Assembly (NCBI RefSeq): GCF_023276355.1
Contig: NZ_JALLPL010000001.1
Span: 558,001-622,000, forward strand
Length of the DNA stretch: 64,000 nt
Reading direction: 5' to 3'
Source: Haloplanus sp. XH21
Lineage (GTDB): Archaea > Halobacteriota > Halobacteria > Halobacteriales > Haloferacaceae
The position numbers and the translations under genes were made by a program. Below the pieces are notes generated by a model. The model made no database searches and was not told where the DNA came from. It was given only the letters and a program-made list of their open reading frames with translations. Positions 34,069-59,136 of the stretch are shown here, one piece after another (position 1 is the first letter of the stretch; each line of letters starts with the position of its first letter).

Positions 34069-34320
34069 CGGGGCGTTCGGCCTCGTCAGGGCGCGGCGCT
34101 GCTGGCAGGCGGCGGAGAACTATAAGTTACCTTACACTACGTTCGTCGGGTTTTGATACGTTGTCCACCCATCGAACAGGAATTTTACAACCTTATACAA
34201 CATGTATCCACTATTAAATCGGACGAACATCCACCAGTCGCATCTAATATAGACATTTGTAAACGCTAAATCTTATATTATGCCGTAACAGTACCTTCTA
34301 TCGCAACTTGGAGAACGAAC
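34069..34320. promoter_or_regulatory. AT-rich intergenic region upstream of the amt-PII leader
   Basis: No gene is seen here. The last 200 bp are AT-rich compared with the coding DNA. It holds a 7-bp inverted repeat, GTTCGTC (34141-34147) and GACGAAC (34222-34228), 74 nt apart, and the promoter at its end. TTTGTAAACG at 34256-34265 is followed by CTTATA at 34272-34277, the same element and spacing as upstream of nirA (57249-57270). The predicted transcription start is near 34301. Confidence 0.65.
34256..34277 (+). promoter_or_regulatory. shared nitrogen-promoter element plus TATA box (amt copy)
   Basis: TTTGTAAACG, six variable bases and CTTATA. The identical ten bases and CTTATA occur upstream of nirA at exactly the same spacing (16 nt from start to start). 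The ten-mer lies where a BRE-proximal activator or repressor would touch the pre-initiation complex. Common control of ammonium uptake and nitrite reduction is the obvious inference. Confidence 0.65.
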
Positions 34321-34401
34321 ATGGAAGAAGAAATCGGAAACACTGACGACTGTCCAAGTATCGATAGCGAAATAGCGCGGGTGGAGGTGACGGAATGGTA
34401 G
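34321..34401 (+). CDS. 26-codon leader ORF overlapping the amt start
   Basis: This ORF of 26 codons plus stop begins [11 protein letters not shown] and ends VEVTEW. It has its own Shine-Dalgarno GGAG (34310-34313), 7 nt before the ATG, and lies downstream of the predicted transcription start. Its TAG (34399-34401) overlaps the amt ATG (34395) in another frame, and the amt Shine-Dalgarno GGAGGTGA (34383-34390) lies inside it. Translation through it would control access to the amt start site. Whether the peptide itself has a role is unknown. Confidence 0.5.
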
Positions 34402-36023
34402 CGCCGCTGCAGGTCGACCCCTCGGCGCTCGCCTCCGGGGTCAACAACGCGTGGATCCTGACGGTCAGCTTCCTGATCTTCTTCATGCACGCCGGCTTCG
34501 CCATGCTCGAGGCGGGGCAGGTGCGCTCGAAGAACGTGGCGAACCAGCTCACGAAGAACATGCTGACCTGGAGCGTGGGCGTCATCGTCTACTTCCTGAT
34601 CGGCGCTGGGATTTCGACGATGGTCGGCGGCGGTGCCGATCCGTTCAGCTACATCATGGGCGACGCCGCCGGCTGGGTCGGCTGGCTCTACGGCGCCGTC
34701 TTCGCCATGACGGCGGCGACCATCGTGAGTGGGGCCGTCGCCGGCCGCGCGAAACTCCGCGCGTACGTTACGTACACCATCCTGCTCTCGGCGGTCATCT
34801 ACCCGGTCGTCACCGGCCTCACCTGGGCCGGTGGCTTCCTGACGACCATCGGACCGGGCTTCCAGGACTTCGCCGGCGGCATGATCGTCCACGGCATGGG
34901 CGGCATCGCCGGCCTCACGGCCGCGTGGGTCCTCGGACCCCGGATGGACCGCTACGAGGAGGACGGCAGCGTGAACATCATCCCCGGGCACTCGCTCACC
35001 TTCGCGGTGCTCGGAACGCTCATCCTCTGTTTCGGCTGGTACGGCTTCAACGTGGGCACGTCGGCCATCTTCAGTGACGGCGGCCTGCTCGGTGACCAGC
35101 TGGGCCGTGTCGCGCTCACCACGACGCTCGGCATGGCCGCGGGTGCCATCGGCGCCGGAACGGCGGCGCTGGCCAAGACCGGCAAGGTCGACACGCTGTA
35201 CGTCGCCAACGGCATGCTCGCCGGCCTGGTCGGCATCACGAGCAACACGAACGCGATCACGTGGATCGGCGCGCTCGTCATCGGCGGCCTCGCCGGTGCA
35301 CAGCTGCCGGTCGTCTTCGAATTCGTCGAGAAACGGCTCAAGATCGACGACGTCTGTGCGGTGTTCCCGGTCCACGGGAGCGCGGGCGTCCTCGGCGCGG
35401 TGCTGTTCCCGCTGTTCGCGATCCCCGGCTACTCGGTGAGCTTCGTCGGCCAGATCGTCGGCGTCGCGGTGATCGCCGCGTGGACCATCGCCGCGACGGC
35501 CATCGTCTTCGGCGTCCTCAAGGCGATCGGTCAGGCACGCGTCTCGCCCGAACACGAGCGTGAGGGCCTCGACGTGGCCGAACACGGCGTCAACACCTAC
35601 CCCGAATTCGGCGAACCCGACGTCGTCGCCGACGGCGGCGAAGACCAGATCATCCGCACCGACGGCGGCACCGACGACCGCGACATCAAGATGGTCGTCG
35701 CGATGCTCCGTCCGGAGAAACTCGGCGACGTAAAACAGGCCATCGCCGAAGTCGGCGCCCCCTCGATCACGGTGACGAACGTCTCCGGTCGCGGTTCACA
35801 GCCCGCGAAGAAGGGACAGTGGCGCGGCGAGGAGTACACCGTCGACCTGCACCAGAAGGTGAAAGTCGAATGCGTGGTCGCCGATGTGCCTGCCCGCGAC
35901 GTGGCGGAGGCGATCCGTAAAAGCGCCAATACGGGCGAACCAGGCGACGGCAAGATCTTCATCATGCCCGTCGACAACGCCGTTCAGGTCCGGACCGGCA
36001 AGGAGGGGCCCGACGCGGTCTGA
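34395..36023 (+). CDS. amt: ammonium transporter fused to a C-terminal PII (GlnK) domain
   Basis: This 542-aa protein combines two normally separate proteins. Residues 1-400 are an Amt channel with about eleven membrane segments; the pore histidine pair is in [10 protein letters not shown] (about residue 164) and [11 protein letters not shown] (about residue 325). After a 30-residue acidic linker, residues 430-542 form a PII domain: [20 protein letters not shown], a T-loop ending [14 protein letters not shown] with the conserved tyrosine, and the B-loop [14 protein letters not shown] binds ATP/ADP and 2-oxoglutarate and normally blocks Amt through the T-loop; here the regulator is tethered. 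Translation starts 4 nt after a perfect GGAGGTGA. No separate glnK is seen nearby. Confidence 0.95.
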
Positions 36024-57013: not shown

Positions 57014-57302
57014 TACGGATCCCCGTAACGGGTTCCAGCGACCGGCGGAACTGACATCGTCGACTCGTCTGCAGCGCGCGCCTCGCTCGATTGCGACCGC
57101 TCTGCGCGATACGCTCGTCGGCCTTCGTTCCATTTTTGGTGAACATTCGTCCACAGATAATCGAATATCTGAACGGAATACATCCTTAAACAGGGAATAT
57201 CTCATAATAAATCGTACAGTCATCGATCAGAGAGGCCATAATACGATGTTTGTAAACGGTTATGCTTATACGGTGCTGTCAACAGATATTGTATCACGAG
57301 AA
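57014..57302. promoter_or_regulatory. nirA promoter region
   Basis: This intergenic stretch becomes AT-rich from 57130 on. It contains the element TTTGTAAACG at 57249-57258 and CTTATA at 57265-57270, identical in sequence and spacing to the amt-PII promoter (34256-34277). The predicted transcription start is about 57294-57296. No other gene is visible; an ORF of 43 codons from 57246 would begin upstream of the transcription start, so its downstream Met at 57303 is the likelier leader start. Confidence 0.65.
57249..57270 (+). promoter_or_regulatory. shared nitrogen-promoter element plus TATA box (nirA copy)
   Basis: TTTGTAAACG, six variable bases, then CTTATA. The ten-mer and TATA are identical to those before amt-PII, with the same 16-nt offset. 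It is a strong candidate binding site for a nitrogen regulator acting next to the BRE/TATA complex. Confidence 0.65.
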
Positions 57303-57377
57303 ATGTTGAACGTACTGGCCCAATCACTCGGAAAGTTGGACGGATACGGTTCGTCAGAGGTGAGTGACGATGAGTAA
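57303..57377 (+). CDS. 24-codon leader ORF overlapping the nirA start
   Basis: This ORF, MLNVLAQSLGKLDGYGSSEVSDDE, begins within about 10 nt of the predicted transcription start, so it would be translated from an almost leaderless end. Its TAA (57375-57377) lies inside the nirA coding sequence, overlapping the nirA ATG (57370) in a different frame. The nirA Shine-Dalgarno GAGGTGA (57357-57363) is within the ORF. The arrangement repeats that of the amt leader: nearly the same length and overlap, but no sequence similarity. Confidence 0.45.
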   Translation: MLNVLAQSLGKLDGYGSSEVSDDE

Positions 57378-59136
57378 CAAGAAGGAGACCTGGAAAGAGG
57401 GGATGTACGGCGACGAGGTTCGCGAGAAGATCATCGAGTTCGCGGAGAAGGGGTGGGAGTCCATCCCCGAGGACGAGCGAGACATGTGGTTCTCGCGGTT
57501 CAAGTTCTGGGGCGTCTTCCACCAGCGCGACGGGCAGGAGAGCTACTTCATGATGCGGTTGACGAACGCAAACGGCCAGATGACCGCGGAGCAGCTCCGC
57601 GCCATCGGTGAGGTGGCCCGCGACTACGCCACCGGCCCCGTCGACAACCCCGAGTTCGGCGACGCCTGGATCGACCTCACGACCCGCCAGTCGGTCCAAC
57701 TCCACTGGATCAACCTGGAGGACGTGCCCGCCATCTGGGAGAAGTTGGAGTCGGTCGGCGTGACGACGCGGTCGTCGGGTGGCGACACCATGCGCAATAT
57801 CGTCGGCTGTCCCGTCGCGGGCAAGGATAAACACGAACTGGTCGAGACCCAGCCCCTGCTCGACCGGCTGCAGGAGGACCTGCGGGGCGACGACAATCTC
57901 GCGAACATGCCCCGGAAGTTCAACATCAGCGTCACGGGCTGTCGCGAGGGCTGTGCGCAGGACGCCATCAACGGCATCGGGCTCGAACCGGCCGAGAAGG
58001 AGATCGACGGCGAGACGGTCACCGGATTCAACGTCCGCGTCGGCGGTGGCACCGGCAGCCGCGAACCGCGGAAGGCGCGAAGCCTCGACGTGTTCGTCAC
58101 GCCAGAGAACGCATACGACGTGACCCGTGGGTTCGTCGAACTGTACCACGACCACGGCCGTCGGGACAACCGACAGAAAAACCGGAGTCGCTTCTTCGTC
58201 GACGACGAAGGGACGGAGTCGATCCGCGAACTGCTGCAGGCGGAGTACGTCGACACCGACCTCCACCGCGAGGGCCGGAGCGTCCGCGACGAATACACCT
58301 ACAACGCGGGTCGACCGCCCGAGGAGGGGAAGACGGACCACGTCGGCGTCCACGAGCAGCCGGACGGTCGCCACTACGTCGGCCTGAACGTCCCGGTCGG
58401 GCGGATGACTGCTCGGGAAACCATCGCGCTGGCGGACATCGCAGAGGCGTACGGCTCCGGTGACATCCGACTCACCCGGCGCCAGAACCCGCTCATCATG
58501 GATGTCGAGGAGTCGGCACTCGACGCGCTGCTCGACGAACCGTTGCTGGAGACCCACCGCCCGGAGCCGACGCCGTTCGAGCGTGGCGGCATGGCGTGTA
58601 CCGGCACCGAGTTCTGTGGCATCGCGCTCACGGAGACGAAACTGCGGCTGACGCGGATGCTCCGCTGGCTCAACACGAACGTCGACGTGCCGGACGACGT
58701 GGACACGATCAAGATCCACTACTCGGGCTGTACCGCCGACTGTGGCCACGCGTACACGGCCGACATCGGGCTTCAGGGGATGCGCGCCCAGAAGGGCGGC
58801 GAGATCGTCGAAGCCCTCGACATCGGCGTCGGCGGCGGCATGGGTCCCCACCCCGAGTTCGTCGAGTGGGTCAGCCAGCGCGTGCCCGCCGACGAGGTGC
58901 CCGGTGCGATCCGGAGTCTGGTCGGCGCGTTCTCGGCTCACCGCGAGGCGGGACAGACGTTCCGCGAGTGGGTCGAAGACGTGGGTACGGAGTCCGTCGT
59001 CGACCTCTGTGACCCCGAGGAGACCGACTACGAGGACCCCTACATGTACGACGCCAAGCAGTCGTGGTACCCGTTCGAGGACGGCGAGAGTCCAGCACCG
59101 ACGACCGTCAACGACGCCCCCATCTCGTCGGACTGA
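57370..59136 (+). CDS. nirA: ferredoxin-nitrite reductase (assimilatory, sirohaem)
   Basis: This 588-aa enzyme reduces nitrite to ammonium with six electrons from ferredoxin. The two-fold repeated sulfite/nitrite reductase fold is clear. The 4Fe-4S/sirohaem cysteines are in MACTGTEFCGIA (C..C with five residues between) and HYSGCTADCGHAYTADIG (CxxxC). The parallel half has FNISVTGCREGCAQDAIN. Sirohaem-binding arginines and TTRQSVQLHWI are present. The C-terminal part (about 530-588) carries an extra acidic tail. A sulfite reductase activity is the alternative, but the FNT, DUF6360-like and cobA context favours nitrite. The start is the ATG at 57370. Confidence 0.93.
   Translation: MSNKKETWKEGMYGDEVREKIIEFAEKGWESIPEDERDMWFSRFKFWGVFHQRDGQESYFMMRLTNANGQMTAEQLRAIGEVARDYATGPVDNPEFGDAWIDLTTRQSVQLHWINLEDVPAIWEKLESVGVTTRSSGGDTMRNIVGCPVAGKDKHELVETQPLLDRLQEDLRGDDNLANMPRKFNISVTGCREGCAQDAINGIGLEPAEKEIDGETVTGFNVRVGGGTGSREPRKARSLDVFVTPENAYDVTRGFVELYHDHGRRDNRQKNRSRFFVDDEGTESIRELLQAEYVDTDLHREGRSVRDEYTYNAGRPPEEGKTDHVGVHEQPDGRHYVGLNVPVGRMTARETIALADIAEAYGSGDIRLTRRQNPLIMDVEESALDALLDEPLLETHRPEPTPFERGGMACTGTEFCGIALTETKLRLTRMLRWLNTNVDVPDDVDTIKIHYSGCTADCGHAYTADIGLQGMRAQKGGEIVEALDIGVGGGMGPHPEFVEWVSQRVPADEVPGAIRSLVGAFSAHREAGQTFREWVEDVGTESVVDLCDPEETDYEDPYMYDAKQSWYPFEDGESPAPTTVNDAPISSD

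Follow-up and report, generated by a model that had tools for sequence, protein, structure and literature searches.

A two-part promoter element upstream of nitrogen-assimilation genes in Haloplanus and other haloarchaea

The amt-PII and nirA loci

The window analyzed here, a 64-kb stretch of the 2.94-Mb genome of Haloplanus sp. XH21, includes the two nitrogen genes considered here, both on the forward strand. The gene amt-PII (34395..36023) encodes an ammonium transporter with a fused PII domain (PF00909 and PF00543), and nirA (57370..59136, with an alternative start at 57364) encodes a ferredoxin-type nitrite reductase of the nitrite/sulphite reductase family. The amt-PII gene is a single frame of 542 amino acids with the PII domain at the C-terminus; several relatives have the same Amt-PII fusion, and others match the Amt part only or contain one in-frame stop inside the match.

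A sequence-only reading of the window had named both genes and reported an identical element upstream of them. The gene names are confirmed by Pfam, which finds Amt and PII behind one site and nitrite/sulphite reductase behind the other, and the element itself is real: TTTGTAAACG-N6-CTTATA occurs at 34256-34277 and 57249-57270 with no mismatches and with the reported 16-nt offset. Its distance to the start codon is 139 nt for amt-PII and 121 nt for nirA. Pattern searches of the 2.94-Mb genome, on which all genome-wide statements below are based, yield these two occurrences and a sole additional match carrying three mismatches. The 64-kb window has no third site even at three mismatches, the number expected from shuffles being 0.00.

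The reported element is, however, incomplete, being one half (M1) of a larger module. A second common element, M2 (TACRWCCTTAWA-N7-TAT), overlooked in the earlier reading, begins 69 bp upstream of M1 at both amt-PII and nirA. The promoter elements and leader open reading frames (ORFs) described here lie on the same strand as the genes. In the amt-PII promoter, M2 (34186..34211, TACAACCTTATACAACATGTATCCAC) starts exactly 69 bp before M1 (34255..34280), which comprises the core TTTGTAAA(CG), BRE-like bases, and the TATA box CTTATA at 34272-34277. Between M2 and M1 lies a dyad-like element of the M3 type (34221..34232, GGACGAACATCC, consensus TGGACGNNCGTCCA), for which the evidence is weaker. Transcription is expected to start near 34300. 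The leader ORF of 26 amino acids (34321..34401) contains an M3-like, GGAC/GTCC dyad-like stretch, GACGACTGTCC (34345-34355), and its stop overlaps the amt-PII start. The nirA locus has the same layout, with M2 at 57179..57204 (TACATCCTTAAACAGGGAATATCTCA), again exactly 69 bp before M1 (57248..57273, GTTTGTAAACGGTTATGCTTATACGG), a TATA box at 57265-57270, a transcription start expected near 57293, and a leader ORF of 24 amino acids (57303..57377, MLNVLAQSLGKLDGYGSSEVSDDE) whose stop overlaps the nirA start. An M3-type element, also with weaker evidence, is found further upstream (57140..57153, TGAACATTCGTCCA), and a GGAC/GTCC dyad-like element is situated at 57337-57349.

Conservation and distribution of the module

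Upstream regions of amt and nirA orthologs were collected from 119 genomes of the family (49 amt and 50 nirA regions), and each set was analyzed separately with a de novo EM motif finder. In the amt set, the top-scoring motif was M2 (TACgtCCTTATAcaacct.TATtc) and the next one was M1 (gttTgTCAACtC.AA.ctTTATaT). In the nirA set, M1 was recovered (atTTttTaAAcGa.tA...TTaTa) and M2 was absent from the top motifs listed, so that M1 is the only motif common to the two separate runs. After joint training, an M2-M1 spacing of 67-70 bp was observed in 46 of the 49 amt promoters (tallied at 69 bp) and in 24 of the 50 nirA promoters, both promoters of the window being among them. The joint matrices detect neither M1 nor M2 in the control promoters, that is, those of the amt2 paralog and of sulphite-reductase-like genes. 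Several tallies, namely those of spacing and of site-to-gene assignment, were counted by eye from coordinate tables and not by script.

Approximately half of the nirA promoters in the family, for instance those of Halorubrum and Haloquadratum, have the M1-like part alone or neither element. A group of nirA loci that includes Halorubrum and Haloquadratum (L042-L045, L047, L049, L051, L052, L054, L116-L118, and L121) retains the M1-like part without M2; close to where M2 would lie, these promoters have a GAAATATA-like stretch.

The whole 64 kb was scanned on both strands with matrices whose training set consisted solely of 37 amt promoters from other genera. The two window sites rank first and second for each of the two elements and for their composite, with composite scores of 44.7 and 32.2, the next best score in the 64 kb being -15.7. 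With the same held-out matrices, 14 of the 50 family nirA promoters score above 25, and the best score among 20 control promoters (amt2 and sulphite-reductase-like genes) is -32.5.

The distribution of the module was assessed by searching for the M2-69-M1 pattern with at most three mismatches, the reversed pattern serving as a control. In this genome the only sites are those before amt and nirA. The 119 family genomes contain 108 sites, the reversed pattern being found in none of them. Nearly all of these sites are upstream of amt, amt paralogs, or nirA, as judged by comparing coordinates by eye; among the remaining ones, one fetched site each is found before nasA and before narK, three are at the Haloferax nasA position known from named loci, and two with three mismatches look like chance. 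In a sample of the order that shares some genomes with the family set, 51 of 146 genomes are positive, and the reversed pattern gave two matches, both in small AT-rich genomes. At 33 of the 36 places fetched from this sample, tblastn identifies amt, nirA, nasA, or narK, and three places encode none of those. Among the named loci, the module precedes nirA in Haloplanus, Haloferax, Halegenticoccus, Natrinema, Natrialba, Halostagnicola, and Haloarcula; among the named nirA loci it also occurs before nasA in Haloferax and Natrialbaceae, and before narK in Halosimplex. A spacing of 70 bp is common at nirA in Natrinema and its relatives. In locus L226, nirA and amt are divergent, and two back-to-back modules occupy their intergenic region.

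The earlier proposal of a shared regulatory element before nitrogen genes was to fall if the motif occurred at random positions genome-wide or was not conserved before orthologous amt and nirA genes. Scans of the genome, the family, and the order reveal no such random placement, and the element is conserved before both kinds of orthologs across genera; the proposal is therefore supported. As expected for a co-regulated regulon, the element precedes several genes of one pathway and is absent from unrelated genes, and both the element and its spacing are conserved before orthologs in different genera. Hence it is well supported by sequence comparison that M1 forms one end of a bipartite control sequence marking the haloarchaeal nitrogen-assimilation regulon (amt or amt-PII, nirA, nasA, and narK). 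Since the module stands almost solely before nitrogen-uptake genes, it probably is a switch turning them on when ammonium is short. The expectation that glnA and urease genes would also be targets finds no support, as the only two composite sites of this genome belong to amt and nirA; with the composite matrices, the glnA and lrp loci do not rise above background.

Promoter anatomy and leader ORFs

Alignment of the promoters on M1 reveals conserved blocks from about -100 to +75. The CTTATA box and the preceding C-G-N-N-A bases fit the haloarchaeal TATA box and BRE (TTWT and CGAAA), and since they occupy the positions expected for these elements, the specific part of M1 is mainly TTTGTMAA. Palindromic readings of M1 made by eye (TYAAC-N7-GTTA over the TATA box, or GTT-N4-AAC) are not upheld by the joint matrix, in which position 17 is not rich in G; M1 is thus a degenerate dyad at most.

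In the amt, nirA, and nasA sets, the A+T content over -120..0 has a period of 10.5-10.75 bp (block-permutation p <= 0.001), and in the narK set of six sequences the phasing is not significant. Less certain are the GGAC/GTCC dyad-like stretches, which occur upstream, between M2 and M1, and in the leader. We take those around the amt-PII and nirA promoters to resemble Lrp-type sites.

Of 88 promoters, 87 have a leader ORF whose end lies close to the main start; mononucleotide-shuffled leaders give about 22. A 4-base overlap is the most frequent offset and is an arrangement known for termination-reinitiation (PMC6728339). Whereas the ORF retains its overlap with the main start, the encoded peptide varies freely in sequence, and the possibility of a conserved leader peptide was dropped. 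With the end of the leader ORF overlapping or abutting the main start, termination-reinitiation is the probable mode of translation for amt and nirA.

Ammonium control and candidate regulators

In Haloferax mediterranei, the amtB-glnK, nasABC, and nasD genes are switched off during growth on ammonium and are expressed with nitrate or under starvation (PMC8143581, PMC3831643), and GlnK is dispensable for the repression of glnK-amtB (PMC3831643). Ammonium control of these gene types is thus already published; the switch mechanism is called unknown in the literature (PMC8143581, PMC3831643), and Lrp/AsnC is a candidate for the regulator. Palindromic and "consensus" regions, one of them essential, were noted upstream of these ammonium-repressed promoters (PMC8143581, PMC3831643, PMC2483277). 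However, these reports deal with single promoters, and the M1/M2 pair, the 69-bp lock, and the regulon-wide spread were not found there. Our literature search, which covered open-access papers, found no earlier description of the M1/M2 module. With a 5-bp change in "region 2", the Haloferax nasABC promoter loses all activity on nitrate, and an Lrp/AsnC protein is pulled down on this promoter (PMC8143581). The expression of Lrp, on the other hand, does not track the nitrogen source.

We suggest, as a reasonably probable interpretation, that M1 is the proximal site of a two-part nitrogen-regulon module, where an activator binds TTTGTMAA within a larger wrapped complex, Lrp/AsnC being the leading candidate. 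When ammonium is short, the regulator would bind the TTTGTMAA core directly upstream of the BRE and TATA box and recruit TBP and TFB. It would belong to, or contact, a larger complex that is anchored at M2 and held on the phased DNA upstream. Such an arrangement would account for the fixed M2-M1 spacing, and for the wrapped part the foremost candidate is an Lrp/AsnC-type oligomer. The transcript would start with the short ORF, and its end, overlapping or abutting the main start, would allow reinitiation at amt or nirA. The activating role, to which we attach moderate confidence, is suggested by the position of TTTGTMAA beside the BRE and by the loss of activity in the published region-2 mutant.

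Several observations are consistent with an Lrp/AsnC regulator. AsnC-domain proteins are encoded in four places of the genome, one of which (511326-511532) is divergent from glnA at 512217, and helically phased multi-site DNA is present at amt, nirA, and nasA. The glnA/lrp region itself is without the module, as judged by the held-out matrices. The earlier remark that no regulator is visible in the window agrees with the ORF list, in which, with a subset of the window ORFs family-searched, no DNA-binding protein was recognized near amt-PII or nirA. The archaeal Lrp/AsnC operators of Ptr2, LysM, and Ss-LrpB likewise consist of helically phased site clusters on wrapped DNA, with activation from a promoter-proximal, tightly constrained site, and some members of the family respond to glutamine (PMC2995911); in contrast to these operators, the present module is a candidate binding site, and a DNA specificity for haloarchaeal Lrp was not found.

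A related but less favored possibility is a rigid enhanceosome-like complex, in which regulators at M2 and M1, or a single large oligomer, would impose a fixed geometry on approximately 120-180 bp of phased DNA, with even a one-base change of spacing rarely tolerated; nitrogen assimilation in haloarchaea would then be under the control of a regulator not yet named.

An unlikely alternative is that M1 is the operator of an ammonium-responsive repressor blocking TFB and TBP, with M2 as a second operator joined to it by looping. The core indeed abuts the BRE, the regulon is off on ammonium, and both the fixed spacing and the dyad-like GGAC/GTCC stretches on either side of the promoter would suit multi-operator repression. 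There is also a precedent in methanogens, where NrpR represses nitrogen promoters through the operator GGAA-N6-TTCC. Yet the core sits beside the TATA box and not over it, and the operator of NrpR, similarly an archaeal regulator acting on a nitrogen regulon at the promoter, differs from M1 and M2. A search for the NrpR domain (PF01995) gave no matches in this genome, which is 96% complete, while the control search finds the domain in two methanogens; an NrpR-controlled regulon was rejected on this ground. Finally, the region-2 mutant, as described in PMC8143581, loses activity and gains none on ammonium.

A tandem promoter seems quite improbable. M2 would then be an upstream core promoter, with CCTTATA as its TATA box and M1 as the downstream one, and a conserved GGACG block does follow about 29 bp downstream. 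However, M2 also has conserved TAC and TAT parts and an 11-bp internal repeat, the upstream CGTCC half-sites are in 11-bp register with it, and base-exact spacing would be needless between two independent promoters. A generic haloarchaeal promoter or chance similarity can be dismissed: although the BRE and TATA box, common to all promoters, form part of the pattern, the scans found two sites only in 2.94 Mb, none in the amt2 and sulphite-reductase-like controls, no reversed-pattern matches in the family, and specificity for nitrogen genes across genera.

Two other haloarchaeal motifs invite comparison with the module. The nitrogen-shift motif AAAGACTAART of Haloferax volcanii (PMC6801745) is likewise AT-rich, and the upstream regions of amt1 and amt2 were in its input, but it is unlike M1 and M2 in sequence and lies upstream of 492 genes, whereas the module is nearly confined to four gene types. 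The denitrification motif CGAAYATDKTYG (PMC11218638), considered together with NarO, is also a nitrogen-related promoter motif, but it has another sequence and belongs to respiratory genes, in contrast to the assimilatory genes described here.

It is unusual among archaeal promoters for two elements 69 bp apart to keep base-exact spacing in so many genera. The module defines the bases and the spacing exactly and names the target genes in many genera, which makes it possible to design bait DNA, reporter mutants, and helical-phase tests straight away.
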